Source of the DNA: Nannobrachium achirus
Taxonomy: Eukaryota; Chordata; Actinopteri; Myctophiformes; Myctophidae
Direction of reading: 5' to 3'
DNA: 64,000 nt
Assembly (NCBI GenBank): GCA_963921795.1
Contig: OY997647.1
Location: 60,662,357 to 60,726,356 of the forward strand
Under the pieces are notes generated by a model, which saw nothing but the letters and a program-made list of their open reading frames with translations, was not told the origin of the DNA and did not search any database. Positions within the stretch are counted from its first letter, which is position 1. Every line of letters starts with the position of its first letter. Shown here one piece after another: positions 13,990 to 48,480 of this stretch. The translations under genes and the position numbers were made by a program.

Positions 13990-14360
13990 CTCCTGGGCTG
14001 GCCCTCAAACTGTGGAATAAACTCCCTGTCGCACTTAGAACAACAGACTCACTCCCTAGCTTTCGCCGTGGCCTGAAGACTCACCTCTTCAGACTCCACC
14101 TTAGCCCATAGCACTTACCTCACCTACCCTCAATGACCATACATGAATGCTAGATAGCATTTTTAGGTTTTATATAAAGTTTTTACTGAATGGGTGCTTG
14201 GTCTACACGTTCTTTTTTTTCCCTAGATAATATTTCTATGCGTTTGATGTATTGATGTTGATGTATTGATGTCTTTATTAACTTGCTTATTGTATTGCTT
14301 ATTGTAAGTCGCTCTGGATTAAGAGCGTCTGCTAAATGCTTAAATTGTAATTTGTAAATT
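13990..14360 (+). mobile_element. Non-LTR retrotransposon 3' fragment
   Basis: Reads LWNKLPVALRTTDSLPSFRR then GLKTHLFRL and a stop. This is the usual C-terminal pattern of several fish LINE reverse transcriptases. A 3' UTR follows, ending in GTCGCTCTGGATTAAGAGCG and TCTGCTAAATG. Only the 3' end is present. Confidence 0.65.
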
Positions 14361-20103: not shown

Positions 20104-20313
20104 GTTTATTATCATACCTCCAGACAAGGTCCCCCTATGGGATATCGGCGCCATCTGGCGGCGCAACAGAGTAAAACTCATATCCTCCCATACGAAAAAT
20201 GTCATTTGTCGGAAGGGCTGTCAATCACAAAACGAGGGCACCGCCCCCGAGTGTATATAAGCCCTGTGGGCTATCATAACTTCCTCTTTCCGCACCTCTG
20301 CCTTGCAACTAGA
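20104..20313 (+). repeat. DIRS left inverted terminal repeat
   Basis: Matches 30937-31175 in inverse, including GGCGCCATCTGGCGGCGCAA and the TATATAAGCCCTGTGGGC block. The TATATAA near 20256 could be a promoter element for the internal ORFs. Confidence 0.85.
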
Positions 20314-20550
20314 GTGTCGCGAACTCAGCCATATAGTAATTAAATTCTGTAAAGTTTAGCCTATAGCGACGGCTAGGAAGTCGGCCACTGGCCTTTATAG
20401 AATCCCTCCTGTACGTTTCTCTTCTATCTTCTCTCTACAGTTCGTGGTTTTCTCTTCGTTTGTCTTTGAGTCTTTACCTTCTTCTCTGTACGCTCTGCCA
20501 CGTGTTTCCCTGCCCTAGCTTAGCTTCGCCTAGCTTCGGTTAGCTTCACG

Positions 20551-22476
20551 ATGGCGGCTCGTCGGCCCACGGTTAGCAGCCTGCTAGCCAGGGTCCCTAA
20601 GAAGTGCGGCCTTCCCAGCTGCAAAGGACTCATCGCCAATGAAGACACCCACCCGTTCTGCATTGTCTGCATGGGGGTAGGACACGCCTTGGCCTCTCTG
20701 TCCCCTCCGGCCCCGGCCACGGGGGTGAACTGTGCTGAATGCCTCCAGTACGACGTTCCAGCCCTCGAGGCCCGATGTGAGATCGCTGCCGCAGGCTACG
20801 GCCTTCACACCACGGTCTCTGCCGGAACCCTCCCAGACACCTCTCCTCGTGTGCCGGACAGCGCTGTACGCCACAGCGCTGCTTCTCGCCACGTGGTTAG
20901 GCCTCCAGCGGCCTTGCCCTCAGCTAGCTTCGGTAGCCCCGATGCTAGCGGGCCTGCTACTGCTGCTCCCCCTACTGTTTCTCCGACTGGCTCGACTGGT
21001 GCCGTGCCCAAGAAGAGAACATGCAAGACCGCCCACGTTGCTCCACCGCCAGCTGCAACCTTGGCCGTCCCTTTCAAGGAATTCCACCCGCTAATCGTCG
21101 GTGACATTCCCCTCTCCTTCTCCGTCCCCCAGCTCCGGGCCATGCGGCCACCTAGCCCCGTCTCCTGGCATGCTAGCGACGGTGACGAACCGGAGCCAGA
21201 GGACTACGACATGTCCGAGGTGGACTCGGAGGGTGAGTACTCGGAAGAAGACGAGTCCACGCTTCCCTCCGGTCAGGGCGGAGGCGCGGCCGGGTCGGTT
21301 CCTCACGCCGAGGTTCCTACCTCCGCCGCGTCCTCCCCAGCCCCTTCTGCCTCTCTCCCCCCTTCCATGCCGGCTGGGGCGAGAGGGGCAGAGGCACAAG
21401 ACCCAGACTCTATCCCCATGGACGAGCTCTCGGTGCTGGAACGTGCTACCATCCGCTGCGGCCTGGAGCTGCCGCTCGGAGGCGCGCCACTCGGACCACG
21501 GGCTAGGGTTCCTATCCTAGGCCAGGATTTGGAACCTTCCCCCCCGCAACGCATGGTTAAGCTCCCACTAGTCCCAGGTTTTGCAGAAGCCCTGCATTCG
21601 ACCTGGACTACGCACAAGGACCCCCCCAAGCTCCCCTTCTTGGTCGACTGCCGCGACGCAGAGAAGGCGGGAATCCCCTTGTGCCCTCCCATGGACAAAC
21701 TGATGGCTCAGTCCCTCATCGGGAGCCTCAAGCCAGCTCATGAGCGGACCGGTCCTGGAGGCCGCAATCCCTTCAACTTGTCCGTGGGGAAGAAGCCTCC
21801 TGGTTTTGCCATCGCCTACGACGACAAGCAGTCGTCCAGGGTCAGGAACTCTTACAGAGCCTCCGCGCTGGCGGCCAGGACGATGAACGCCACCCAGCTG
21901 CTGCTCTCCTCCACCAGGCGCCTCCTTAGCGAGATGCGGGAGGTGCCTAACGATACGGTGGAGGAGGTGGACAAGTCGCTGCGCATGCTGATGGACCTGA
22001 ATGTCCACGCCATCGAGTGGCTTGGACACGGTATGGATTACTGCATCCAGGCGGAACGTGCCAGGTGGCTTGAAAAGGTAAAGTGTCCTGGCAGTTCCGG
22101 AGAGGAGACCGAGAAGGTCCTGCAAGACCTCCCCGGCCACCCTAACTCCCTCATGGGCGGTGGACTGGAGCTTCTCCGCCAGGAGGTGGCGGATAAGAAG
22201 ATCACTCTGGAACTCCTGGAGGCCACGACGGACCCCCAGGCACCCAGAAAGGAGAAGAGGCAGGGACGAAGCAAGGCCCCTGGTCAGGCTGACAGGGGGC
22301 GCTCTGCATCCAAGCAGGGGAAATCCAACAATCCCCCTAGGACCCCCTCCTCCTCCTCCGCGGGACCCCCTCGCACTACAGCGGGGGCTCCTACCCGCTC
22401 TCAATCCCGCCACCCTCCCAGGCACGGGATACCGGCCAGCTCCCACAAGGCCCGTGGGAAGCCGCCGCGAAAGTGA
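20551..22476 (+). CDS. DIRS gag-like ORF1
   Basis: A 641-codon frame on the plus strand of the element. The N-terminus has a Cys/His cluster (C19, C24, H34, C37, C40, H45), the pattern seen at the start of DIRS gag-like proteins. A Pro/Ser/Ala-rich and acidic middle follows, with a conserved central block and a basic, Arg/Lys-rich tail suited to nucleic-acid binding. It would package the element's RNA. GC-rich codon use stands out from the AT-rich flanks. It overlaps the next frame by a few bases. Known from the family; function inferred. Confidence 0.8.
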   Translation: MAARRPTVSSLLARVPKKCGLPSCKGLIANEDTHPFCIVCMGVGHALASLSPPAPATGVNCAECLQYDVPALEARCEIAAAGYGLHTTVSAGTLPDTSPRVPDSAVRHSAASRHVVRPPAALPSASFGSPDASGPATAAPPTVSPTGSTGAVPKKRTCKTAHVAPPPAATLAVPFKEFHPLIVGDIPLSFSVPQLRAMRPPSPVSWHASDGDEPEPEDYDMSEVDSEGEYSEEDESTLPSGQGGGAAGSVPHAEVPTSAASSPAPSASLPPSMPAGARGAEAQDPDSIPMDELSVLERATIRCGLELPLGGAPLGPRARVPILGQDLEPSPPQRMVKLPLVPGFAEALHSTWTTHKDPPKLPFLVDCRDAEKAGIPLCPPMDKLMAQSLIGSLKPAHERTGPGGRNPFNLSVGKKPPGFAIAYDDKQSSRVRNSYRASALAARTMNATQLLLSSTRRLLSEMREVPNDTVEEVDKSLRMLMDLNVHAIEWLGHGMDYCIQAERARWLEKVKCPGSSGEETEKVLQDLPGHPNSLMGGGLELLRQEVADKKITLELLEATTDPQAPRKEKRQGRSKAPGQADRGRSASKQGKSNNPPRTPSSSSAGPPRTTAGAPTRSQSRHPPRHGIPASSHKARGKPPRK

Positions 22477-25291
22477 CACTGGACTCTGGCGGGGTCCCGC
22501 TGATCATTCAGGGGACCCCCCCTCTCAAGCGCAAACGAGTGAACAATATGAACAATTTTTCTCATGCCAAGAAAATAATGTTGTTGTCTCCTCCTCTGTG
22601 CTCTCCTCCAGTGCCTGTATTAAAGTGTGTGTTGACAAAACAATGCCTGTTTCTTTCAAACCCACCTGCTCTAGTACAGACGACCCCATTTTGCATGAAT
22701 TTAGCCAGTGTAGAGAAGTCCAGGCTGGAATTTCTTTCCACTCAGAAAATATCGCTTTCTCCAGTCACGCAGACAGGGTACAAGCAGAATATTTCTCATT
22801 GCAAAATGTTCCCAGACAAGCTAATTCCTATTCACAATGGTATGGTTTCACTAGTGTGCAATACCCCTCTGTCTCCACTGAGCGGCACTGCTATGCCGAC
22901 TCTAGCTCAGGACAGGAGTTTGGTCTTAGCGTCAGGGAAGAAGCCAGCACTTTTCAACACCCAGGGTCGGCCTCGTCTTCCCGTAAGGAAGCATATAAAG
23001 GCCTTAGAACAGGTTATAAACGTAAATACAATTCCCCGAGCCGGGGATTTTGTTACTTATGCGATAAACCCTGTCGCCCGGGCTCCACGTTATGTGCCGC
23101 CTGTATTATTAACAAGCGAGGCTTCTCGGAGGTCACGTGTCCGTCTCCCACCGGATACGGAAATAAGCGTACCGGAAACGGAAACACTCTTTCCTCCGGT
23201 GTCTCCGCGCCTTCCGGCCCGGCGTCTAGCGGATACGGAAACGTGCCCGGATACGGAACCTCTCGGTCCCGTCCATCCTCTCCCTCACGGCCCAGTAGTC
23301 CCGCTCAGGCGGTACAACCCCAAGGCTTCTCCGTTGCTCAGCAACACGTTAGCACAGTATGCAGAGCAATGGAAGCGTTGCAATCCGAATCACTGGGTGT
23401 TTCGGACAGTGACACGGGGCTACAGACTACAGTTCGCGGAAATACCCTCCCTATCCAGCAAGGTTATTTACACTCGAGCCCGTGGCTTTAAAGCGGATGC
23501 CTTGAGGGAGGAGATAAGCTCACTATTGCGCAAGGGCGCTATAGTGGAGTTATCCCGCGACCAGAGCCGTTTAGGCTTCTGGAGCCGTTATTTTCTGGTA
23601 CAGAAAAAGGGGGGGGGGCTGCGTCCTATAATGGACTTACGTGCTCTGAACAAGCACTTGAAAAAGTTCAAATTCAGGATGCTGACGTCAGAGTCCCTGA
23701 TGAGATCAGTGAGACAGGGGGATTTCCACTGTTCAGTGAATCTGAAGGATGCTTATCAACACATCCTCATTTATCCCCCACACAGGAAGTTCCTGCGGTT
23801 CGCCTTCGAGGGGCGCCTGTACGAGTACACGGTCCTCCCCTTCGGTCTTTCCCTGAGCCCTTCAAATTCAGGATGCTGACGTCAGAGTCCCTGATGAGAT
23901 CAGTGAGACAGGGGGATTTCCACTGTTCAGTGAATCTGAAGGATGCTTATCAACACATCCTCATTTATCCCCCACACAGGAAGTTCCTGCGGTTCGCCTT
24001 CGAGGGGCGCCTGTACGAGTACACGGTCCTCCCCTTCGGTCTTTCCCTGAGCCCTCGGGTTTTCGTGAAAGTGACCGAGGCAGCCATTGCTCCACTGAGG
24101 CATCAGGGAGTCAGGCTCGCGAACTACATAGACGATTGGATGATTTCCGCCGCCTCCTGCTCAGGAGCGGCGCGCCATACCGATCTGGTGTTGTCACACC
24201 TGAAGGCCTTGGGTTTCAACGTCAATTTTGGCAAAAGCATGTTGTCACCCTCCCAGCAGATTTCCTTTATAGGGATATCTCTGGACTCGGCCACAATGTC
24301 CGCCCGCCTCTCACCGGAGAGGGTGGACAGGTTTCTGACTTGTCTCAGCTCCTTCCGACTGAACCAGGTGGTCAGGTACAAGGAGTGCATGAAGTTAGCT
24401 GGGCTGATGGCATCAGCGGTGCAACTTCTGCGTCTGGGCAGGTTTCACATGAGACCTTTCCAGCGGTGGACACTGGCGCTCAGGATTCCTTCCCTGCAAG
24501 GGTACAGGAAAGTGACGGTCAGCCAGGTCTGCATGGACGCTCTGGTCCCATGGAGGGACCAGGCGTTGTTGACGAGTGGGGTCTCCATGGGCGAGGTGAT
24601 ATCACGCAAGGTGATCACCACGGACGCCAGCCGCTCGGGGTGGGGCGCCACCCACGAGGGGCGTTCAGCCAGGGGTCTCTGGACCCCGGCCATGTTGGAG
24701 TACCACATCAATTATCTGGAGTTAATGGCGATCTACTTGGCGCTCAAGCATTTCGAACCATTTCTTCTGGGTTGTCATGTTCTGGTCAGGACGGACAACA
24801 CGGCGGCCCTGTATTATCTCAACAAACAGGGTGGCCTCTGCTCGCACCCGCTGGATCAGCTGGCGCGCGAGATGACCCTCTGGTGCTTGCCTCGTCTGAG
24901 GTCCATCAGAGCCTCCCATGTTCCGGGCCTTCAGAACGGCGGCGCCGATCTGTTGTCCAGGGGGGAGCCTCGTTACGAGGATTGGTCTCTCCACCCTGCG
25001 GTGGTGAGGCAGATTTTCTCCAGATTCGGTCAACCTCGAGTAGATCTCTTTGCCTCTCAGGAGAACGCGAAGTGTCCCCTTTACTTCTCAGTGAGGGGAC
25101 CTTCTCCTCTGGGGACGGACGCGTTTGCTTACGAGTGGCCAGAAGGCCTTCTCTACGCGTTCCCGCCCCTGGAACTGATCCTTCCCACTCTGGAGAGGAT
25201 CAGATGTTCCAACCGGGAGGTTCTTCTAGTAACACCGTCCAGGGGAGTGTGGAGGTCTCTGATCACCCCACTGCTCTCTCGACCCCTGTAG
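22473..25291 (+). pseudogene. DIRS reverse transcriptase / RNase H / methylase-like region
   Basis: Recognisable parts in order: a basic N-terminal stretch, RT fingers and palm (FLVQKKGGGLRPIMDLRALN, later the catalytic YIDD box), RNase H (TTDASRSGWGATH), and the C-terminal DIRS block with DLFASQENAKCP and FPPLELILP, which is usually assigned to a Dam-like methylase domain. The RT groups with Ty3/gypsy-type enzymes in the literature. The region is not intact in this copy. It ends just before the foldback insertion at 25287. Confidence 0.85.
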
Positions 25292-25873
25292 CAACTCATA
25301 ATGTAATAACGGCTCATAATGTAATAAGGGCTCATAATGTAATAAAAAAAATGTAATAAAAACTCATAATGTAATAATCAGCTCATAATGTAATAAAAAA
25401 ACGAGCGCATAACGTAATAACAGATTTTTCAATAATGTAATAATGTAATAATGTGTTACATTAAGAACCTCCACATAGGAGCCTCATAATGTAATAAAAC
25501 TTCATAATGTAATAATGTATTTTTTATTACATTATGAACTGATTATTACATTATGAGCTTTTATTACATTTTAATTATTACATTATGAGCTAGTTTTTTA
25601 TTACATTATGAGCTGATTATTACATTATGAGTTTTTATTAGATTTCTTATTACATTATGAGCTCTTATTACATATGAGCCGTTATTACATTATTGGTTGC
25701 TACACACCCTGCCAACTTTGTTGATGAAGAATGGAGCAACTATCTGCTAAACATGCAGCAAATGAATACCTATTGGGATCATTTAACTGTACAACGAATA
25801 TCCACAATGTTCAACGTACAGTTCGTGATTGTATCAACACTGGGTGTTGATGCAACATCGATAACACACACTT

Positions 25874-26237
25874 AATTCAAAGAGTCCAGGAAGCAGAGGA
25901 GAGCGCACCACTTCGATTTGTCCAGACTTAGGACCAGAGTGAGGTACAGGTCAGGGCCAAGGTGAGGTACCGGGTCAGGGCCACAGTGAGGTACTGGGTC
26001 AGAGCCAGAGTGAGGTACCGGGTCAGGGCCACAGTGAGGTACGGGTCAGGGCCATAGAGTGAGGTACCGGGTCAGGGGCTCAGGGCCACAGTGAGGTACC
26101 GGTCAGGGCCAGAGTGAGGTACCGGGTCAGGGTCAGAGTGAGGGCCAGACTTAGGGCCAGAGTGAGGGCCAGACTTAGGGCCAGAGTGAGGGCCAGATGG
26201 AAGTGGTGCGCTCTCCTCTGCTTCCTGGACTCTTTGA
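25874..26237. mobile_element. MITE with minisatellite interior
   Basis: ATTCAAAGAGTCCAGGAAGC..GAGCGCACCACTTC and its inverse GGAAGTGGTGCGCTCTCC..CTTTGAAT form arms of about 40 bp. The interior is a minisatellite of about 20-24 bp (AGTGAGGTACCGGGTCAGGG) with roughly ten imperfect units that grade into AGGGCCAGACTT units. Confidence 0.75.
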
Positions 26238-27803
26238 ATGTGGAGAGGGCTGCAGGCGATTACGGATTACAAACCGAAGCCGGCTGTTATTAACACCTCG
26301 GACTCTCTACCGGACGAATTGAATAACTTTTTCGCCCGCTTTGAATCTCACAACACGGACCCAGTTACACCGGTGCGGGGTACACCCGGTGCGGTGGAGC
26401 TGCAGGTGACACAACGAGATGTGAGTAAAACTTTTAAAAGCGTTGGGACTCATAAGGCGGCCGGTCCTGATGGGATTGCCTCACGTGTCCTTAAGTTGTG
26501 TTTTGACCAGCTTTCGGGAGTCTTTACTGACATTTTCAATATGTCCCTGTCATTGTGTGTGGTACCGTTGTGTTTCAAGGAAACCATAATTGTACCCATA
26601 GCAAAGAAAAAACCTGTCACCTGTCTTAATGATTATCGCCCTGTGGCTTTGACCTCTGTTCTTATGAAGTGTCTGGAAAAAATGGTTATATCACATATAA
26701 CGCACATTATCCCTGCCAATACTGATCCATTACAGTTTGCATACTGTGCTAATAGATCAGTCGATGATGCTATTTCTCTCGCACTACACATTGCCTTGAA
26801 ACATCTGGAGAATAAGAACTCTTATGTCAGACTACTCTTCATAGATTATAGCTCTGCCTTTAACACGATTGTACCATCTAAGCTTGTGTTGAAACTCAGG
26901 GGTCTTGGTCTGGGCAGTAGTATCTGCAACTGGCTGTTTGACTTTTTGACAGGCAGGCCACAATCTGTACGAATAGGGAACAAGCATTCATCTAAGATAT
27001 TGACCAGGACTGGAGCGCCCCAGGGCTGTTGCCTCAGTCCCTTGTTGTATAGTCTGTTCACCTATGACTGTGTTGCCAGGTGTGGAAATAATTCTATTCT
27101 CAAATTTGCAGATGACACCACGGTTATAGGACTAATATCCAACGATGATGAGAGGGCCTATAGGAGGGAAATTGAAGAGCTAACCCTATGGTGCCAGAAT
27201 AACAATCTCTCTCTAAATGTTAGTAAAACAAAAGAGATCATCGTTGACTTTAGGAAATCTGAAGTCAATCACAGTCCCGTAACCATAAATGGTTCACCTG
27301 TAGACATAGTGGACAGTTTCAAATTCCTGGGTGTTCACATAACAAACTCACTCACATGGTCTCAAAACAGCGAAGGTATCCTTAAGAAAGCGCAGCAGCG
27401 ATTGTACTTTCTGCGGCGCCTCAGGAGATTTGGCCTAAGCACCAAGGCTCTTGTTAATTTCTATCGCTGTACCATAGAAAGTGTATTGACAGGATGCATA
27501 ACAGTGTGGTTTGGTAACGTGACTGCTCAAGACAGTAAACAGTTACAGAGAATTGTGAAGAGAGCTGCCAAAATCATTGGCACAGAATTACCACAGCTAC
27601 ACACAATCTATAACACACGCTGTAAGAAAAAGACAGAGAACATCTTAAAGGACAGCTGTCATCCCGCCCATTCCCTGTTCTATCTCCTCCCTTCAAAAAA
27701 ACGTTACCAGAGCATCAAATCTCACACCACCCGTTTCAGTAATAGTTTTTATGCTCAAGCAATCAGGTTGCTTAACGAAGAGATGGAAGCGAGACGTAGG
27801 TAG
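26238..27803 (+). CDS. L2-clade reverse transcriptase ORF (endonuclease missing)
   Basis: An open frame of 521 codons. RT motifs in order: AAGPDGI, NDYRPVALTS, FIDYSSAFNTI, GAPQGCCLSPLLYSLF, the catalytic box FADD at residues 290-293 (F in place of the usual Y), NVSKTKEI and FLGVHI. The C-terminus HTTRFSNSFYAQAIRLLN is typical of L2/CR1-group elements. No stop interrupts it, so it is fairly recent. The N-terminal endonuclease was lost at insertion, so the copy could not retrotranspose alone. Family assignment to L2 within the CR1 group is from motif recall. Confidence 0.85.
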   Translation: MWRGLQAITDYKPKPAVINTSDSLPDELNNFFARFESHNTDPVTPVRGTPGAVELQVTQRDVSKTFKSVGTHKAAGPDGIASRVLKLCFDQLSGVFTDIFNMSLSLCVVPLCFKETIIVPIAKKKPVTCLNDYRPVALTSVLMKCLEKMVISHITHIIPANTDPLQFAYCANRSVDDAISLALHIALKHLENKNSYVRLLFIDYSSAFNTIVPSKLVLKLRGLGLGSSICNWLFDFLTGRPQSVRIGNKHSSKILTRTGAPQGCCLSPLLYSLFTYDCVARCGNNSILKFADDTTVIGLISNDDERAYRREIEELTLWCQNNNLSLNVSKTKEIIVDFRKSEVNHSPVTINGSPVDIVDSFKFLGVHITNSLTWSQNSEGILKKAQQRLYFLRRLRRFGLSTKALVNFYRCTIESVLTGCITVWFGNVTAQDSKQLQRIVKRAAKIIGTELPQLHTIYNTRCKKKTENILKDSCHPAHSLFYLLPSKKRYQSIKSHTTRFSNSFYAQAIRLLNEEMEARRR

Positions 27804-28017
27804 TCATGTGCAATATACGCAGTTTTTAAACTGTACACTGTCACACTGTATGGTTGTTTTGTTGTTTTTTGGGTTGTCCTGGGTGACCTGTTGTTGTCGT
27901 ATTGTTTTGTGTGCAATAAGGCTGAGAGTGCTCTTGGCACAAGCATTTCATTGTTTGTCTGTACTTGTATGGATACGCATTTGACTAATAAACCGAACCT
28001 GAACCTGAACCTGAATC
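26238..28017 (+). mobile_element. L2-like LINE, 5' truncated
   Basis: RT ORF (26238-27803), a short 3' UTR, then a (CCTGAA)n-type tail just after ACTAATAAACCGAACC. Its 5' border falls exactly at the end of the MITE at 25874-26237. The upstream apurinic endonuclease domain is absent, so it is 5' truncated. It lies inside the foldback element, which lies inside the DIRS element. Confidence 0.8.
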
Positions 28018-28204
28018 AAGTGTGTGACTGGTCCATCAAGGCTTACATAATGGTCCCCATGACCTTTGGCAAAGTGGCCCAGAACTAGCAATGGCAGACT
28101 GTCGTCATACTGACCACATGGGGATATTATCGATGTTGCATCAACACCCAGTGTCGATACAATCACGAACTGTACGTTGAACATTGTGGATGCTCTTTGT
28201 ACAG

Positions 28205-28722
28205 TTAATGGTTCTACACCATGCTTTTAAAAATAACGTAATCATTTTTAAATAATATAACATTGTTTGTGTCCCAAAAAAACGTTTTTCAAAAGGTTTG
28301 AGGCTAAATTACCACTCTGAATACAGAGCCCCTGTCATTTCTGCCTGGCTTTCAGAGCATTTTCAGCTGCAGTACCACCTTGTCCTGAGTGGGAGGACTG
28401 CGCTATTGAACCAGTTTTGGCCCCACACTCCTCCCCACCTCCTGCTCAGCAGGCCTGCCCACCCCTCCCCAAACCCTCTCCCAGCTCCTCCTGCCTCCTT
28501 CTCAGGCCTGCCCACCCCTCCCCAACCCCCACTCAGCACACAATCTGACCTAAAATCAGACAGCCCGTTCTGAAACCTGCTTAACGGTGCATAGATCTAC
28601 CCATAAACTGAGAAAGACACAATGGCCAGAAATAGGACTTTGTGAGGATAGAACCTGCTGGTGAGACACCAAAGAAATACATAAAAATTGGAAAAATTTA
28701 TATTCATGGTGTATTCCCTTTA
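28205..28722. mobile_element. TTAA-flanked MITE
   Basis: TTAA, then TGGTTCTACACCATG at left, and CATGGTGTATTCCCT then TTAA at right. It interrupts the right arm of the foldback element; the left arm reads TTAAATGATC uninterrupted, which shows the empty site. piggyBac or Kolobok type by target. The interior is C-rich with CTGCCCACCCCTCCCCAA repeats. Confidence 0.7.
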
Positions 28723-29145
28723 AATGATCCCTATATGTATTCATTTGCTGCATGTTTAGCAGATAGTTGCTCCATTCTTCATCAACAAAGTTGGCAAGGT
28801 TTGTTACCCACAACCAATAATGTAATAACAGCTCATAATGTAATATTTTTTTAATAAAAACTCATAATGTAATAATCAGCTCATAATGTAATAAAGAACA
28901 AGCGCATAATGTAATAATTAAAATGTAATAAAAGCTCATAATGTAATAATCAGTTCATAATGTAATAAAAAATACATTATTACATTATGAAGTTTTATTA
29001 CATTATGAGCCTCCTATGTGGAGGTTCTTAATGTAACACATTATTACATTATTACATTATTGAAAAATCTGTTATTACGTTATGCGCTCGTTTTTTTATT
29101 ACATTATGAGCTGATTATTACATTATGAGTTTTTATTACATTTTT

Positions 29146-29303
29146 TGCCAGACCCATGAAATGGGTAGGCCTACATAAGCAAATGTCTGTCGGTCCGGGT
29201 TTTCTATATAAAGGGTATATATGATGATGACATGATGATGACATGCCTACAAAAGGCATGATGTCATAAATGATGATGACAGACAGGGGGTCTGGCACAA
29301 CCA
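29146..29303. mobile_element. Small CCAGACCC TIR insertion
   Basis: TTGCCAGACCC and GGGTCTGGCACAA are inverted ends within the right foldback arm. The interior has GATGATGACA reiterations. No target duplication resolved. Confidence 0.5.
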
Positions 29304-29383
29304 GGTTGACCTGGTCTAGTTTTATTACATGAGCCGTTATTACATTATGAGCCGTTATTACATTATGAGTTGCTACAACCCCC

Positions 29384-30526
29384 TTGGCGGCTCCCCTTGC
29401 ACAGGGATCTGCTGCGCCAGGCAGGGGACGAGATCTTCCATCCAGACCCACGGGGCCTAGACCTGTGGGTTTGGCCCGTGAGAGGGAGAACCTGTTAGCA
29501 GCAGGTTTCTCACCAATGGTTGTAGCCACTATTCAGAGTGCTAGAGCCCCCTCCACTAGGGCTGTGTACGATGGAAGATGGAATGCCTTTTTGGACTGGT
29601 GTGAGCTGCAGGAGCCACCTGTGGTGGCTCACTTAGCTCCGGCCCAGAGGGTGTTAGATTTCCTGCAGGATCGCCTGGACCTTGGTCTGGCGTTCTCTAC
29701 ACTGAGGGGTTATTTGGCGGCTATTGATGCCTGCCACCTGGGGGTGGCAGGTAAAGGCCTTTCTAAAATCCCTGAGGTGGTCCAGTTCATGCATGGTGTT
29801 GACCATTTGAGACCTGTGACCAGAGCCTTGTTTCCTGCTTGGGATCTACAAGTGGTTCTTGAGGGCCTTTGCAAGGCACCCTTTGAACCGCTTGGGAGGA
29901 CCTCTTTGAAACATTTAAGTTTCAAGACAGCTCTTTTGCTTGCCTTGTCTACGGCTAAGCGTGTGAGCGACCTTCATGCGCTCTCTGTGAGCCCTGATTG
30001 TATGAGGTTTCTCAATAATGACTCCAAGGTTCTTCTTAAACCTCATTTGAGTTTTATTCCTAAGAACCGAGTGATCCCGAAGGAACCTGTGGTTTTGACG
30101 GCTTTCCATCCTCCTCCGTTTGCATCGGAGGAGGATAGGCGTCTTCATTGTCTTTGTCCGGTTAGGGCCCTGAAGGCCTACTGTGACAGGACGGTGGACA
30201 GCAGGTCTACTTCTCAGCTTTTCGTGGTCATGAATGCCCGTCAGCGAAAGGCGGTGTCCAAACCCACTCTGTCGAGATGGATTGTGGATGCCATTAGGTT
30301 GGCTTATACCCGTGCTGGGTCTGAAGTGCCAGAGGCACTTAAGGCCCACAGTACTAGGGGTGTGTCGACCTCTTGGGCTTTGTCCAAAGGTGTCTCCATT
30401 GAGGAGATTTGTGCGGCGGCGAATTGGTCTTCGCCGTCCACCTTTGCGACCTACTATCACCTGGACGTTGCGCCTTCTGCCATGGCGCATACGGTTCTGG
30501 GTGCTGCTGCCCCGCCTACGATGTAG
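29384..30526 (+). CDS. DIRS tyrosine recombinase
   Basis: A frame of about 380 codons resuming right after the foldback insertion. It has the tyrosine-recombinase signature: an Arg in STAKRVSDLHAL, then HSTRG (the HxxR box), then a Tyr in TFATYYHLD. In DIRS elements this enzyme inserts a circular double-stranded intermediate without making a target duplication, in place of a DDE integrase. The start of the protein is lost in the insertion junction, so the true N-terminus cannot be set here. Confidence 0.85.
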   Translation: MAAPLAQGSAAPGRGRDLPSRPTGPRPVGLARERENLLAAGFSPMVVATIQSARAPSTRAVYDGRWNAFLDWCELQEPPVVAHLAPAQRVLDFLQDRLDLGLAFSTLRGYLAAIDACHLGVAGKGLSKIPEVVQFMHGVDHLRPVTRALFPAWDLQVVLEGLCKAPFEPLGRTSLKHLSFKTALLLALSTAKRVSDLHALSVSPDCMRFLNNDSKVLLKPHLSFIPKNRVIPKEPVVLTAFHPPPFASEEDRRLHCLCPVRALKAYCDRTVDSRSTSQLFVVMNARQRKAVSKPTLSRWIVDAIRLAYTRAGSEVPEALKAHSTRGVSTSWALSKGVSIEEICAAANWSSPSTFATYYHLDVAPSAMAHTVLGAAAPPTM

Positions 30527-30829
30527 TGGGGCGGCTCTCTCCCCTTCCTGGGACAGCATGCTACTGTCTCTAGGATACCTGGGGGGGGACCCTGAGTGTT
30601 TCCCTTATACTACTGTAGTATTATAAGGCGGACCCGTGTCTGCCCTTAGTGCATAAGGCAGATCTCGGTCTGTCAGGGTCTCTTTTTCTGTCTGAACACG
30701 CCCAGGCCCTGTGGGTCTGGGTCGGGCCAGTCCTGGGAGGGGTCACGTCGGTTGACGAGACCTCCTTCCGGGGGTGGTCGGTGTACACGACAGTCTTGTC
30801 GGTTCATGACTTCTCGGGGAGTGTATGAG

Positions 30830-30922
30830 TCCCATAGGGGGACCTTGTCTGGAGGTATGATAATAAACGTATAGGTTCCGAACGGAACCCTGTTTATTTA
30901 ATACCGGAGGACAAGGTCCCCC
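30830..30922 (+). repeat. DIRS internal complementary region
   Basis: The first half (CCCATAGGGGGACCTTGTCT..) is the inverse of the element's left extremity. The second half (CGTATAGGTTCCGAACGG..ACAAGGTCCCCC) is the inverse of its right extremity. Such a region lets both ends anneal during formation of the circular intermediate in the DIRS1 model. Confidence 0.9.
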
Positions 30923-30936
30923 GAATTAAGCCCCTC

Positions 30937-31175
30937 GGTTCGCTAGTTGCGGGCAGAGGTGCGGCTTTTGAGGAAGTTATGATAGCCCACAGGGCTTATA
31001 TACACTCGGGGGCGGTGCCCTCGTTTTGTGATTGACAGCCCTTCCGACAAATGACATTTCTCGTACGGAAGGATATGAGTTTTACTCTGTTGCGCCGCCA
31101 GATGGCGCCGATATCCCATAGGGGGACCTTGTCCTCCGGTATTAAATAAACAGGGTTCCGTTCGGAACCTATACG
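30937..31175 (+). repeat. DIRS right inverted terminal repeat
   Basis: Inverse of 20104-20313, with its own extreme end (TATTAAATAAACAGGGTTCC..) that differs from the left extreme, as usual in DIRS. After 31175 the host MITE resumes with TTTTGGACATACAAGG. Confidence 0.85.
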
Positions 31176-38212: not shown

Positions 38213-38541
38213 CGCTACAAACAGACAGACAGTGAGTGTACTACACACTCACTCCTAGGAGCATGCACGGCAAAAATCCGGCCCTTGGAAATGCAGGCTC
38301 AACACAGAGATTCCAGACTAATATCTACACAGTAATATTAGTCTGGTCGTTGCAGGCTAGAAGTCTGCATAACCAGACATTAATTAGGCAATTGGATGCC
38401 AATTACTGTTGTTTGCAGCTGTTCATTGACGGAGTCAGTGGACACGAGAAGGATACCAGCTTCAATAGTCTAATTAGACACTCCTACCATTCAGTTAATA
38501 TCTTTATTCACAACGATTTATAACAAGCACAGAATAAGCAA
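38211..38541. other. Unassigned intron sequence
   Basis: A short inverted pair, CCAGACTAATAT and ATATTAGTCTGG, at 38310-38345. Nothing else. Confidence 0.5.
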
Positions 38542-38842
38542 TTAAAGGAGTAGTTCAAGCCCAAAATGAAGTTTTTTCTAACAATTACTCAACCCATGGA
38601 GACTTTGAGTTCAATAATATCTTTTTGTTTTTTATCGCATTCCTAAGCCAAAGATTTGAGGAGACTCTTTGTAGGCCCATTGATTCCGGATGGGTCTCCA
38701 TCTGGAATCAATGGGGGGCAATTTATTATAATCAAATAGTTGGCTTAGGAATGTGACAAAAAACAAAAACTATTATTGAACTCAAGTGAGTAATCAATAG
38801 AAAAAAATAATAATAATAATTGGGGGGTGAACTACTCCTTTA
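38542..38842. mobile_element. TTAA-flanked palindromic MITE
   Basis: TTAA, AGGAGTAGTTCA at left; TGAACTACTCCT, TTAA at right. It is a near-complete palindrome including GATTCCGGATGGGTCTCCATCT at the centre and CTTAGGAATG arms. piggyBac/Kolobok-type target. Confidence 0.75.
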
Positions 38843-38987
38843 AACATAATTCACCTTTACTTCCTTATATTTAAAAACATATATTCATAACACTACTACC
38901 AAGACAGCAGCTCCTCCTTTTTAAAAAGTATAGTTATTTAAAAGACAAAATATAAAACAATTGAGAAAAATATTTAGGTCAGAAGAC

Positions 38988-39224
38988 ATAAAGCATAGCG
39001 TAAGTTTATGCAGGGCATGGGAGTCAAGTCGCCGCCAGTCTGAGTGTCAGTTGTCAGTCAGCTCTGTTCTCATACCTCATTAACATATCTGCTGGTCATT
39101 ATGTCACATGACTGCCATACTCCAATCAGAGCTCTCAATCAGTAGGGAAGGCTCCTTTAAATAGAGCTTGCTTTCCCTACCAATGCTTGGTTCCGAAGCT
39201 TCGGAATCATTTGCTGCTTGCTTC
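38988..39224 (+). repeat. Split direct repeat A1
   Basis: Starts ATAAAGCATAGCGTAAG and ends TTTGCTGCTTGCTTC. It contains TTTAAATAG near 39157 and the palindrome GAAGCTTC. Identical by eye to 44180-44416. Confidence 0.85.
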
Positions 39225-40934
39225 TGCGGCTGCTCTACTCTCTGGTTCTGCTCGAAAGCTTGGTGATACCATATGGTTCTGCTTTAGATACTGCTTACTG
39301 CCGTGCTGCTTCAATAGCAATGCTAGCCTGCTTTTATATCTGTTGCTATCACTATGCTACTGCTAACAGTATTATGCCTAATGTTAACTACAGCTATCAT
39401 GATGCACTACTTCATTTGTTCTCATTTACGTGTTTACTACTACTCATAACTTGAACAAGGTCTCATCTAAAATGTATTACTAGCATGCTTGCTTCTCAGA
39501 AGAGAAAACATTTCAACAGTATAGCATATGCTAACAGTGGTAGTAGTGGAAGCTTCAAATTGTTTGTAGCAACATAAGCTAACAGCATGCTTTGCTCTAC
39601 AGTGCACCCCGAACCATGATGGCATTGGCTGTGATTTGTGCTGCCTAGAACAGTATGTGAACTGTTGTTCCTGCCCAGCTTCCAGTGCTGTTTGTCTCCA
39701 GCAGATGCCACACTGGGTTTCTTAAATCCTTAATCGCAGGGCTACACTCTGCAAACACCAGCTAGTTCGGCAGCTAATCCAACATGTTGGCCGGTGTGGC
39801 CATACTCCCTTCAGATGCATGGCTCCATGCAGGGATTCCCATCCTGCTTTAAACAGGTGTAGCCTATGCTATTATTGATATCATGCATGGATGATATTCT
39901 GATGCTACTGCTCACTTCTAATATATGCCTCTTTTCCCAACATTGCTGCTAATCATATACTAATGCTACTTTTACTCTGCAGGCAGGTTGGAACTACTGA
40001 GTATATTTGTGTATTAAGATTAATGCTTTGCTCATTCAGGAATCATGTCAAGTGTTTACAGGAGTAGCACTGCCCCTTTAAGGGCAGAGCATAAAGGTTT
40101 GGCCATGCATAAGCCTGAGTCCGAGTGTTTGTTGGGGACCTGTCCTTGAGGAGTGGTTCAGCTAGTATTCGGTAAGAGTCCTGAATCAAATATTGATGCT
40201 TAGATAATTCAGTGGTACAGCATTTCAAGATGTTAGAAGTTTTATGGAGGGGGTTTAAATGTTTAATGGTTAACATATGCCTTTCATGGGTGTAAGAACT
40301 TGTTACCATGAGAGAGATTGTCATGTGCTACAGTTGAATTAGTCCATATTCAACTAACTGCCACTACTTGGAGTAAAGTAGGTGAGATTGCGGCATTCAA
40401 GCGAGGATCAAACACGCTCACTCTCACACTTGCTTAAGTATGGAAATGAAGGTTCTTGCACAGGTGATTATTTGGCTTTATAAACACCATAGTTAATGTC
40501 CTATGTGGTGGAATGGTGGAAAGTTGATAAGGGAGGTTGTTAAATGGGCAATGCATCATGGGTAGTGTAGTCTATGTACTGCTACCATACACACTGTTCT
40601 CAGTCTAGCAGTGTTGCCAGGTCTGCCCATTATAAGCAACTCGGTCTTGTTTCCCCATAACTTCTAGTTGTGGGTTGTTTGTTCGGGCTTGTTCTGAAGT
40701 AAAGTTGCTTATTTGGCTTGCTTTCAACATCCTTCCAACATGCTTCCTGTTAGAATCAGCCTAGTCTGTGTGCAGAGTGGGTTAATTCCCTTTTTGAGCC
40801 ACATGAAGTCAAGCAGCTACTGTGTGTGTAGTGTGGGGAGAGTTGAAGACTTGTTAGAAGGTTGCATGGGAAAAGTACAGTTGCATGATGGTACAGTTCT
40901 ACTAAAAGGAGATCCTAGGAAGCTCTCCCTATTT

Positions 40935-41200
40935 ACTCAGGAACCTTTGAGAGAGAGGTTTGAGTGAGAGGGATATTCCAGCATGGTGAGAGGCTTGTTC
41001 ACTGCTAAATGCTAATGTTAGCGCATTTGGAACCTTTGAGTTGTATAGCGTAAGAGGATACATTCCAGCATGGGGAGAGGCTTGTTCACTGCTAAATGCT
41101 AATGTTAGCGCATTTGGAACCTTTGAGTTGTATGGAGTAAGAGGATACATTCCAGCATGGGGAGAGGCTTGTTCACTGCTAAATGCTAATGTTAGAGGCT
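40935..41200 (+). repeat. Tandem array, about 87-bp units
   Basis: Three units with starts near 40981, 41069 and 41155. Each has CCAGCATGG.GAGAGGCTTG and TTCACTGCTAAATGCTAATG, and most of each is identical. Confidence 0.8.
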
Positions 41201-41534
41201 AATGTTAGTAACTCGGGGGTTGTCATGGGCTCATGCTACAACGCTATCATGGGAACACTGGAATGGCCATGTGAAAAGCTTGTTCACTGCTAAATGCTTA
41301 TGTTAGCGGCTAATGCTAGTAACACTCAGGGGTGCCATTGTCTTATGCTACAAACGCTAGCATGGTAACACTGAAGTGGCCATGTGAAATGGATAAACTG
41401 AGTTGATGTATCTATGCACAGCCAGTACATGCTGAACGTTGTTCGGAACAGCGTTAAACACTTGTTCTGTAATTTTGCACACGGTGGGAAAAAAAAAAAA
41501 AAAAAAAATACTGCATAGGCTGGCTGCTGCTTCG

Positions 41535-41959
41535 ATTCTGCCATTTTGCTGTATGCTCACCTTATGCTCATGCTAAAGCTGCTACATGTCTGTTGCTAAC
41601 ATCATGTTTCATTTCCAGGCTTCTGCCATTTTGCTGTATGCTCAACTTATGCTCATGCTAAAGCTGCTACATGTTTGTTGCTAACATCATGTTTCATTTC
41701 CAGGCTTCTGCCATTTTGCTGTATGCTCAACTTATGCTCATGCTAAAGCTGCTACATGTCTGTTGCTAACATCATGTTTCATTTCCAGGCTTCTGCCATT
41801 TTGCTGTATGCTCAACTTATGCTCATGCTAAAGCTGCTACATGTCTGTTGCTAACATCATGTTTCATTTCCAGGCTTCTGCCATTTTGCTGTATGCTCAA
41901 CTTATGCTCATGCTAAAGCTGCTACATGTCTGTTGCTAACATCATGTTTCATTTCCAGG
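41535..41959 (+). repeat. Tandem array, five 85-bp units
   Basis: Units start at 41535, 41620, 41705, 41790 and 41875. They are nearly identical and each ends in GTTTCATTTCCAGG, a good match to a 3' splice site. Looser units (TTTATCATTACAG, TTTATCTTTTCAG) continue to about 42440. Confidence 0.9.
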
Positions 41960-43959
41960 CTTCTTTCTTTATCAGTTGTGCTGCTATGCTACAATGATCA
42001 CATAATTGTGCTAATGGCTCTTGTTGCTGCTGCTTCAGTCAGATACTATCATGTGTCCTAGAATTTCAGCTATTGCTAGCTCCACTCAACCTGCTGCTGC
42101 CTGCTAGCATAACTGCTAATAATTACAGCTAATGCTACTGCTAGTTAATGCTAACATCATGTTTATCATTACAGCTCCATGCCGGAGCTGTGGCATGCCC
42201 ACTGCTACGGCATCAGGTTTTATCATTGCAGCTTCATGCTAAAGCTGCTTCATGTTCCGCTAAATCGTGTTTTTCTATATAGCTTCTTGCTGAGGCTGCT
42301 ACATGTCTGCTGCGAACATCATGTTTATCTTTTCAGCTTCGTGCTGGAGCTGCTGCATGGCTGCTGCTACAGCATGTCATTGCAGCGTTGTGCTGCAGCT
42401 TCTGTGTGTTTTCTGCTAACATGTTTATCTTTATAGTTTCGTCCACTACCGTATAATGCCATGAGGCCAGTCAGGAGTCGGTTGGCACTGCAGAGGGCAT
42501 TGCTACTACAGCTTCAGCTAACGCTACTTCTGCTGCAACCATGAGCCTGCCTGCCGGTACTCCTGCCTGCCTGCACGCCTGCCTGCCCACCTGCTGCACG
42601 CCTGCCCGCCTGCTGGCCCGCCTGCTTGCACGCTACAGATTCAGCAGACAGGGGAGTGGCTGCCTGCCTGTTTCATGAGCGACATCGATGTGTCGCGATG
42701 ATCGAGGATTCTGGATCGAGGATACTCACCTGGACCTCCTCCCGAAGCCATGAAAGGCAGGTCATTCGTTAATCAAACTGCATCTTCATCTAAAGGCATA
42801 ATTATATGGCTGATAAGTCAGATGTATTATATAGATTGCGTGGTTGTGGATGATAATAATAATTATAATAATGATGATCGTTGCAACAAGTCTCAAGATG
42901 ATTCTAAGTATATTTCAGCAGCACCTTATGCTTGTAGGAGTTCATTAATATTCAGCCGGGTGGTGCATCAAGGCAATCCAGACTACGTTCTCAAACTAAT
43001 ACTTCTTTCTATCCTCTATGTCATGGTATCTGCCTGGCGTCCTCTGGCGAGGCAAGCTGTATCGGACCTTGGAAGGATGGCTACCAGAGATGCTTCCTGC
43101 AGCATCGGGGATGGCTCCACACCTGTACATCTGTCTATGCATACAACCGGGCTGGCTCCAACTCGGAGGTTATGGACGCTGATCCTCAGCAGCTATGAAT
43201 GTTACTCGCCAGGAAGGAGGTCATTCTTGTTGCTCAAAAGCATGAGCGGCATTAAGTGAGGAGACGGTCGGCTAATTAATTGCTCAAAGGTGGTTGGCAC
43301 GGTTATCACAGCTGTTAATATCAACTTCCAATTGCAGGGTCACGTCTACCTAGCATGGTGGGTAACCTCAAACAGCTCGCTCCCCCTTTAAGGGATGGGG
43401 CACAACTCGGCAAGCGTAGCTGATTCACTCTTCTTCGCAGTGTAGGATGGCTTAAGACCAACTGCTTAATACAATTTGGTTCTGCGTTAGAACCGCTCGC
43501 ACGCACAGCAAGCGTAGCTGACCCACTTTATACACTAATGGTAGGATGGCCTTTTCTTAATTTAAGAACTGCTTCTTAACGGAATAATTATTTCAAAGGT
43601 CGGCAGCGTCGCTTCGCTGCCTCTCTTAGCTATTTCATTTCACTAATCATAGAATGGTCTCTCTTTTAAGATGCAGCATGTATCTTTTAGCATAAAATAA
43701 ATTTGTCAACGCAGAGATCGCAGCTAGCTGCTGCTACACATAGTTACTGCTAAGCTTAGGATGGCTTCTCATGGTTCAAGACTCTGCAGTCTTTTACTTT
43801 TAATCATGTAGAAGTCTGCAGTGGCGCTCTGCTGCTACACATAACCAGAGTCTGACTGACACAGGTTTTATGTGGCGTTGGGTTCCGTGTTTTGGGGGTT
43901 TTAAAGCGCTCTCTGGTTGGCCGAGCCCTGCCAAGACAGAGAGCAAGCTCATTAGTTTT

Positions 43960-44179
43960 GGGGGGTATTGCTGCGTTCCCTGATTTTGCTTAGCATGCTC
44001 AGAAATGCCTGCACAAAATTCAGGGAGCATCTCCGATCGCGGAGCCCTTCAAACGCCAAGTTTAACTGTATTCCATTTATGCAATAAATGGTTAAATATC
44101 CTTGCCAATATCTTGCCGAGTCTATCTGTTCATTATGTTATTAATTGTTATATTCTTGACGTGAATGTTCCTGCCTAAA
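43960..44179 (+). repeat. Split direct repeat B1
   Basis: Starts GGGGGGTATTGCTGCG and ends TTCCTGCCTAAA, joining A2 directly. AATAAA at 44083-44088. Confidence 0.85.
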
Positions 44180-44416
44180 ATAAAGCATAGCGTAAGTTTA
44201 TGCAGGGCATGGGAGTCAAGTCGCCGCCAGTCTGAGTGTCAGTTGTCAGTCAGCTCTGTTCTCATACCTCATTAACATATCTGCTGGTCATTATGTCACA
44301 TGACTGCCATACTCCAATCAGAGCTCTCAATCAGTAGGGAAGGCTCCTTTAAATAGAGCTTGCTTTCCCTACCAATGCTTGGTTCCGAAGCTTCGGAATC
44401 ATTTGCTGCTTGCTTC
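44180..44416 (+). repeat. Split direct repeat A2
   Basis: Second copy of A, directly after B1. The spacer to B2 (44417-44659) holds about three 43-54 bp tandem units with TTAAGCTCATACTGTGATTT. Confidence 0.85.
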
Positions 44417-44659
44417 CTCCTCCACCCCAGCCTCCACCTTTGCATGATCACTCTGGCTAAGCTCAAATACTTGTGATTGTCTGATTAAGTTACATGTCAA
44501 TGTGGTTAAGCAAGTACTGTGATCTTGTCTAAATTTCATGTCATGTTGTTAAGCTCATACTGTGATTTTGTCTAAGTTCATGTCAATGTTGTTAAGCTCA
44601 TACTGTGATTTGACTATGTTACATGTCACGGTTATTGCTATTTGCTATTCTATCCCTAT

Positions 44660-44879
44660 GGGGGGTATTGCTGCGTTCCCTGATTTTGCTTAGCATGCTC
44701 AGAAATGCCTGCACAAAATTCAGGGAGCATCTCCGATCGCGGAGCCCTTCAAACGCCAAGTTTAACTGTATTCCATTTATGCAATAAATGGTTAAATATC
44801 CTTGCCAATATCTTGCCGAGTCTATCTGTTCATTATGTTATTAATTGTTATATTCTTGACGTGAATGTTCCTGCCTAAA
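44660..44879 (+). repeat. Split direct repeat B2
   Basis: Second copy of B, ending TTCCTGCCTAAA. AATAAA at 44783-44788, then flanking sequence CTATTATTG. Confidence 0.85.
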
Positions 44880-45149
44880 CTATTATTGTATAGGATTATG
44901 CTAAACGACTGTCTCAATATCCCACTTGTCATTGCAGTATTACCATAAGGGAGAAAAATGAATTTATATAGGACTGTCACCAACTTGTGGTGTGGTTTGC
45001 AACCGCCACTGAAATGGATTCAGCTGCCATGCTGTTGCACCGAGTTGAGTGGAAGAGGTTACTTTAGCGTGACCGTTGACTTCAAAATATTAGCAAGGCA
45101 AAGAAAAACAAGCTGTGTGGAGTCTATGAAACGTTGCAATGGTTTAAAC

Positions 45150-45852
45150 GTTGCAGGGGTCTTCAACGTTTTCAGGCCAAGGATCCCTTAGTCGAGAGAG
45201 AGTTGAGCCAGGGACCCCCACAGCACATAGATAGTTTCATTGTTTGACGGCACAATCATCAGTGTATTTTGGATTATCATGTCAATTTGTGTTTTCAGAT
45301 ATTTAACCACTTGAACTGTCAATACTTAATAAACTTGACCTTTCACACTGTACTTAGTTTGCTCTTTTTCCCCTCTACACCAAACGTCTTTGCCGAAAAT
45401 AGCCGATCTATAAGCTCACAACGCCTCGCAGCGTTGTGTCAGAATATGGACGCTAGGGTTCAAATCGTTAATATAAAAAAGGAGAAAAAAGACCCCCCAC
45501 CCTGACGAGCACTTTGTATAACACGGTTATATTATGAAAACAGCAGAGGCGAGGCGTTGTAAGCTTGTAGATCGGCTGTTTTCACAGTTTCTGCCTCTAA
45601 TATTTGACAATTTGGCCAATGTTTAATTTGTCATTTAAGAGGTATTAAAAAGTCCTTAAATTGTCACTTTGGAAATGTGCATAAACCCGCTATAGACTTA
45701 AAGTTTATGCTGGTTTGTTTACTGTTGAGTGAGAAAACAATGTTGCACATTAGGTTAATCATCTGGGGACCCCTCAAAATAATTTGGGGACCCCCCACAG
45801 GTTGAGAACCACTTCCCATAGGGGTCCCGGAAACCCTGTTGAAGACCCCCAT
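45150..45852. mobile_element. hAT-like MITE, GGGGTCTTCAAC family, copy 4
   Basis: Inverted relative to copies 1-3. GGTTTAAAC stands on both sides (45141-45149 and 45853-45861), a target duplication of 8-9 bp. The central hairpin is broken into halves at about 45400-45440 and 45553-45590. Extra sequence near 45780 (GGTTGAGAACCACTTCC) suggests a further small insertion. Confidence 0.75.
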
Positions 45853-48160: not shown

Positions 48161-48480
48161 GATCGATTGATTGATTGAAGACTTTATTAGAAGTATGCAT
48201 AGGAAAAGGTACAGTTTCATGACGGTACAGTTCACTGGTACAAGGTCTACTAAAAGGAGATCCTAGAAAAGACTAAGCTTATTTCCACAGGAAACCATTT
48301 AAGTATCTCAAATAACATTGAATGACAGACGAATAGAACACAGTACTATGCAGTAGATATGTAAATAAAATAAAATGAAAGAACAAAAAAAACAACAAAG
48401 AAAACAAAAAAAAAAAACAGTAAGTCTAAACAAACAGTAAGTATATACAAAGAAGGGGCAGGGGAGGGGAGGGCTGGGCT
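48161..48480 (-). mobile_element. LINE-like 3' end
   Basis: On the minus strand it reads TTCTAATAAAGTCTTCAATC followed by (AATC)n and a polyadenylation-like AATAAA. GAGATCCTAG and GGTACAGTT blocks are also seen at about 40880-40920. 5' truncated; clade unknown. Confidence 0.5.

Follow-up and report, generated by a model that had tools for sequence, protein, structure and literature searches.

Layout and coding content of the element

The region between positions 38988 and 44879 of the 64-kb window (the whole stretch of DNA analyzed here, to which all coordinates refer; features are on the plus strand unless stated otherwise) harbors a 5.9-kb element with the order A1-interior-B1A2-spacer-B2. 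Repeat A1 (38988–39224), which forms the left end of the element and would hold its promoter, is identical to A2 (44180–44416) at 237 of 237 bases, and B1 (43959–44179) is identical to B2 (44659–44879), which forms the right end, at 221 of 221 bases, as determined by pairwise repeat comparison. B1 ends at 44179 and A2 starts at 44180, with zero bases between them. Both pairs were recovered with the same limits in repeat searches, one run of which gave B three bases longer. The two identical pairs, the abutment of B1 and A2, and the outer limits described in the initial annotation are all present, as is the 237-bp length of A, whereas its length of 220 bp for B is corrected to 221 bp. Exact repeats as long as these greatly exceed what chance would produce.

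Comparison of the outer flanks with the repeat bordering A or B within the element showed agreement at 3 of 20 bases in one case and 5 of 20 in the other, and inspection by eye of the flanks at this single locus revealed no visible target duplication. Exact pattern scans of viral and genome contig collections returned 0 matches, and a distant blastn search of 43700–44900 against phages returned none, although these misses carry little weight because the collections consist of viral or prokaryotic sequence. Within the window, blastn of the element against the remaining sequence (E up to 1) identified no further copy of A or B. No test supports the earlier suggestion that the element amplifies through satellite-rich cargo.

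The interior (39225–43958; 4,734 bp) was examined by repeat, Pfam, tblastn, and blastn searches and includes several tandem arrays as well as a single fragment derived from a different repeat. An 87-bp array with 2.5 copies (40975–41195) was identified by the tandem-repeat search, followed by an 85-bp array with five copies and 99% matches (41536–41964), each unit of which carries a stretch resembling a branch point and 3′ splice site according to the tandem-repeat and motif searches. A degenerate 54-bp array with approximately four copies and 71% matches (42149–42367; repeat searches) has motifs in common with the 85-bp array. The fragment (40843–40943) is 73% identical to positions 48175–48293 by blastn within the window and is probably a piece of another dispersed repeat, namely its end, that was taken into the element. 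Tandem sequence accounts for 23% of the interior, counted over four stretches listed by hand; the description of the interior as built of satellite-like units therefore applies only in part and is an overstatement. The spacer between A2 and B2 (44417–44658; 242 bp) contains a degenerate 43-bp tandem repeat.

All 46 stop-to-stop ORFs of at least 50 aa in the region 38500–45500 were scanned in Pfam at E-values up to 1 without any match reaching the cut-off of its family; the lowest E-value was 0.0096 (DUF4590, with 16.3 bits where 27 is required). In addition, tblastn searches of five ORFs from the DIRS and LINE sequences of the window against the element gave nothing below E 0.62. By these two approaches, no RT, recombinase, or gag is recognizable in the 4,734-bp interior, and the initial annotation's statement that the element has no recognizable genes is borne out at the sensitivity used. 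An autonomous Ngaro element was rejected, as RT/RNase H and tyrosine recombinase were not recognized in the Pfam and tblastn scans. The element contains seven ORFs of at least 80 aa, compared to 5.3 ± 2.0 expected from Markov shuffles. One stop-to-stop ORF of 185 aa (42702–43256) has no Pfam match and is somewhat longer than expected by chance, as its length was reached in 4 of 300 Markov shuffles; its coding status is doubtful, and it was counted against a gene-less split-direct-repeat (SDR) reading of the element.

The window also contains a DIRS-like element (20104–31151) with Pfam matches to RT, RNase H, and tyrosine recombinase, a Dam-type methyltransferase match below the cut-off (E 0.0078), and inverted ends of approximately 0.2 kb at 92% identity. 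This neighbor represents the same tyrosine-recombinase class as the one considered below for the A/B element, but it has inverted ends, is coding, and has a left end unrelated to A or B. When A and B were compared with its left terminal repeat in either orientation, 124, 170, 198, and 200 of 200 shuffles scored at least as well, and the DIRS-like element is therefore not an evident helper. The same DIRS-like element carries a 650-aa ORF without a Pfam match, which is a possible gag, and an exact tandem duplication with a period of 194 (23667–24055) within its RT region. Also located inside it, at 25287–29146, are inverted arms of approximately 440 bp (93%) that are themselves partly palindromic and are built of units like CTCATAATGTAATAA. 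Between these arms lies an RT ORF with a match to ALKBH8_N (26238–27803), which is probably a LINE. A UnaL2 LINE 3′ element (14291–14345; RF00436), which scores 55.4 bits where the gathering score is 55, is the single Rfam match at the gathering threshold in the whole window, with none located inside the A/B element.

Transcription signals, splice-like motifs, and the B1A2 junction

Repeat A1 contains a CCAAT box (39122–39129) and a TATA-like box (39156–39165), both of which are upstream of a perfect 16-bp palindrome (39191–39206) that starts 26 bp past the TATA-like box and is predicted to form an RNA hairpin; A ends at 39224. The fold of the palindrome region (39186–39230) has a z-score of −3.9, with 1 of 200 shuffles equally stable, and the fold of the 5′ part of B has a z-score of −2.0, with 5 of 200 shuffles equally stable. 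The motif AATAAA is located at 44083 in B1 and at 44783 in B2, as well as at 44179 across the junction of B1 and A2 and at 43696 in the interior. A TATA-like box in A and an AATAAA in B had both been pointed out in the initial annotation and are found as described. Judged from these motifs, the promoter-like and polyA-like signals are placed as the SDR model requires. However, since AATAAA also occurs in B1 and across the B1A2 junction, a full-length transcript must read past both, which argues against the SDR reading.

Combinations of CTAAC/T, a pyrimidine-rich tract, and YAG occur 11 times on the plus strand of the element and once on the minus strand, although the 85-bp array contributes five of the 11 as copies, which are not independent, and the criteria are simple ones of our own. 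Second-order Markov copies of the element contained 3.0 ± 1.7 combinations (maximum of 9 in 500 copies), and same-size overlapping windows across the rest of the 64 kb, on both strands, contained a mean of 0.99 and a maximum of 4. Over the whole element, GCTAA occurs 35 times on the plus strand, where 4.8 would be expected judging by the remainder of the window (reverse complement, 7 compared to 4.4), and GCTGCT occurs 24 times compared to 1.7 (reverse complement, 3 compared to 1.7). The module recurs in the array units between 41536 and 42440, where, as predicted from its motifs, it looks like a branch point with a 3′ splice site. The acceptor-like sites have their ends at 41618, 41703, 41788, 41873, 41958, and 42174.

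An imperfect inverted repeat (44155–44220) spans the junction of B1 and A2, with arms at 44155–44179 and 44197–44220 separated by 17 bp. The final 10 bases of B agree at 9 of 10 positions with an inverted segment of A (44197–44206, corresponding to 39005–39014 in A1), and the inverted similarity reaches approximately 25 bases with one gap. Statistical evaluation gave mixed results: in a test anchored at the junction, the score was matched at 267 of 18,068 background positions (1.5%), whereas in an unanchored test the similarity was unremarkable against the window background, where 595 of 4,534 positions scored equally high, and moderate in comparison with shuffles, 85 of 3,000 of which did so. 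The fold of the junction strand was equalled in stability by 1 of 200 shuffles. The inverted repeat might be a recombinase site and is regarded here as a candidate, a lead rather than proof.

Split-direct-repeat reading and alternative origins

The element can be interpreted as a non-autonomous tyrosine-recombinase retroelement with an SDR (Ngaro-like) design and without recognizable genes, a reading to which we assign a probability of roughly 0.68 on the basis of its sequence. The SDR reading had already been put forward in the initial annotation and remains the best fit to the layout, as the published order of Ngaro and VIPER is matched and the repeat pairs are identical. It is preferred because of the combination of identical A1/A2 and B1/B2 pairs, the exact abutment of B1 and A2, a spacer that is not derived from the interior, and the absence of a recognizable coding core. 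Weighing against it, the window offers neither a second copy nor an autonomous partner with A and B ends, its own recombinase-coding element is of the DIRS type with inverted ends, and the junction inverted repeat does not stand out in the unanchored test.

Under the SDR reading, an RNA would start in A1 approximately 25–30 bp past the TATA-like box, near 39190, and would end shortly past the AATAAA of B2, near 44800, and would thus be without the outermost stretch of A1 and the terminal portion of B2. The proteins would be borrowed, with an autonomous relative supplying the enzymes for reverse copying into DNA. Both missing ends would be rebuilt on the internal B1A2 block as template, and a circle would be closed in this way at the junction of B2 and A1. 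Such templated end repair would also keep the repeat pairs identical. A tyrosine recombinase, perhaps bound to the inverted repeat at the junction of B and A, could then insert the circle without a target duplication. As A ends only 30–40 bp past the expected start site, the overlap left for annealing would be short. The end-repair and circle steps are modeled on published schemes; to our knowledge, the way in which B1A2 rebuilds the two ends and the site of recombinase action have so far mostly been inferred.

The observed order could also arise from two separate non-autonomous elements that belong to the same family (A-4.7 kb-B and A-242 bp-B) and lie head to tail with common ends and different interiors, for example after a precise insertion at an end. 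The unrelated spacer and interior are consistent with such an arrangement, and A2-spacer-B2 alone has the layout of SIRE, as given in excerpts of its description (PMC6681497), and is similar to the AB repeats that occur in isolation in Cafeteria, as described in the available portion of that report (PMC8547959). It nevertheless needs both an exact end-to-end insertion and full identity over 458 of 458 bases, which a single SDR element would explain together, and we consider it rather unlikely. The same spacer weighs against a tandem dimer of A-interior-B in which the interior of the second copy was lost by simple deletion. A dimer would account for the presence of A and B twice each in the right order, but its spacer must derive from the interior, and comparison of the 242-bp spacer with the 4,734-bp interior gave nothing but short chance matches, the best of them 10 bases long with an E-value of 1.6. 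A search of similar type with a word size of 7 does detect a match of the interior elsewhere in the window at 73% over 119 columns. The dimer, which the initial annotation had named as the main rival, is contradicted in its simple form and was rejected as such; it could be rescued only by a deletion and a later insertion of foreign sequence, and we consider it very improbable.

There is likewise little to recommend an LTR-type element with rearranged LTRs, in which the B1A2 block (458 bp) would be one complete LTR. Although B begins with TG and signals resembling a promoter and a polyA site are present in the block, the block ends with TTC rather than CA, inspection by eye found no primer site or purine tract beside the block and no target duplication around the element, and the outer ends consist of a single A and a single B with the other half of the LTR absent. 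An LTR retrotransposon is thus disfavored by its missing CA end and the lack of matching halves at the outer ends, and its probability appears very small. An assembly artefact, or a local rearrangement without mobility, would be in line with the single copy seen in the 64-kb window. It seems highly unlikely, however, given a spacer without an interior match, flanks that are unlike A or B, and an SDR layout that is already known from other elements. A DIRS1-like element was rejected because the repeats are direct and not inverted terminal repeats.

Going beyond this locus, the preferred SDR element may belong to a family of long non-coding SDR elements in vertebrates. Its members would retain just the four repeats required for replication and integration and would tolerate any interior, including tandem arrays and captured repeat pieces, and their strand-specific, RNA-sense splice-like array could let their own or neighboring transcripts splice in. 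This broader proposal is speculative, and we regard it as unlikely.

Relation to known split-direct-repeat elements

If mobile, the element would help to define the minimal cis-requirements of SDR retroelements, and a gene-less natural substrate would allow both end restoration by B1A2 and the recombinase site to be tested. Split terminal repeats, internal tandem repeats, and little coding capacity are also features of TOC1, a PAT-type element of Chlamydomonas. The host of TOC1 is a different one.

According to excerpts of the respective publications, PAT elements have been described with A1-B1-A2-B2 repeats (PMC4157794), and the order reported for Ngaro is A1-[ORFs]-B1A2B2 (PMC8547959). The parts consulted of a curation guide give A1-internal-B1-A2-B2 as the commonest form and treat missing target duplications as characteristic of DIRS elements (PMC8969392), and in a further source, available in part, VIPER and TATE are said to generate no target duplications (PMC12278014). 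DIRS and Ngaro elements together make up 2.1% of the zebrafish genome, as stated in an excerpt (PMC9341512), and are thus common in at least one fish. Judging by the repeat families present, the host of the element described here is probably a teleost. In the portions of the literature available, the closest agreement in design is with Ngaro-like elements: DIRS-53_XT of the frog Xenopus has an A repeat of 236 bp and a B repeat of 152 bp with 100% identical pairs (PMC9210276), and Cafeteria harbors Ngaros without ORF1 as well as isolated AB repeats (PMC8547959). The present element has the same A1-interior-B1A2-B2 order, similar repeat lengths, and identical pairs, but Ngaro-like elements, as described in these excerpts, encode RT/RNase H and tyrosine recombinase, none of which was recognized here. 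In the literature searched, which consisted largely of freely accessible papers and included the founding Ngaro papers only as references, no long non-coding SDR element of a vertebrate was found.

The VIPER/SIRE pair of T. cruzi has similar SDR ends. As given in the portion consulted of its description, VIPER has an A repeat of 173 bp and a B repeat of 219 bp at 100% identity, and its A2-B2 block, with approximately 30 bp between the repeats, also stands alone as SIRE (PMC6681497); the corresponding gap in the present element is 242 bp. SIRE is the sole gene-less SDR form described in the parts of the literature examined (PMC6681497), and a gene-less SDR relative is accordingly already known. 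Whereas SIRE consists of A-30 bp-B only, the present element keeps four repeats and a 4.7-kb interior, and this long form would represent a variant of the gene-less SDR design.
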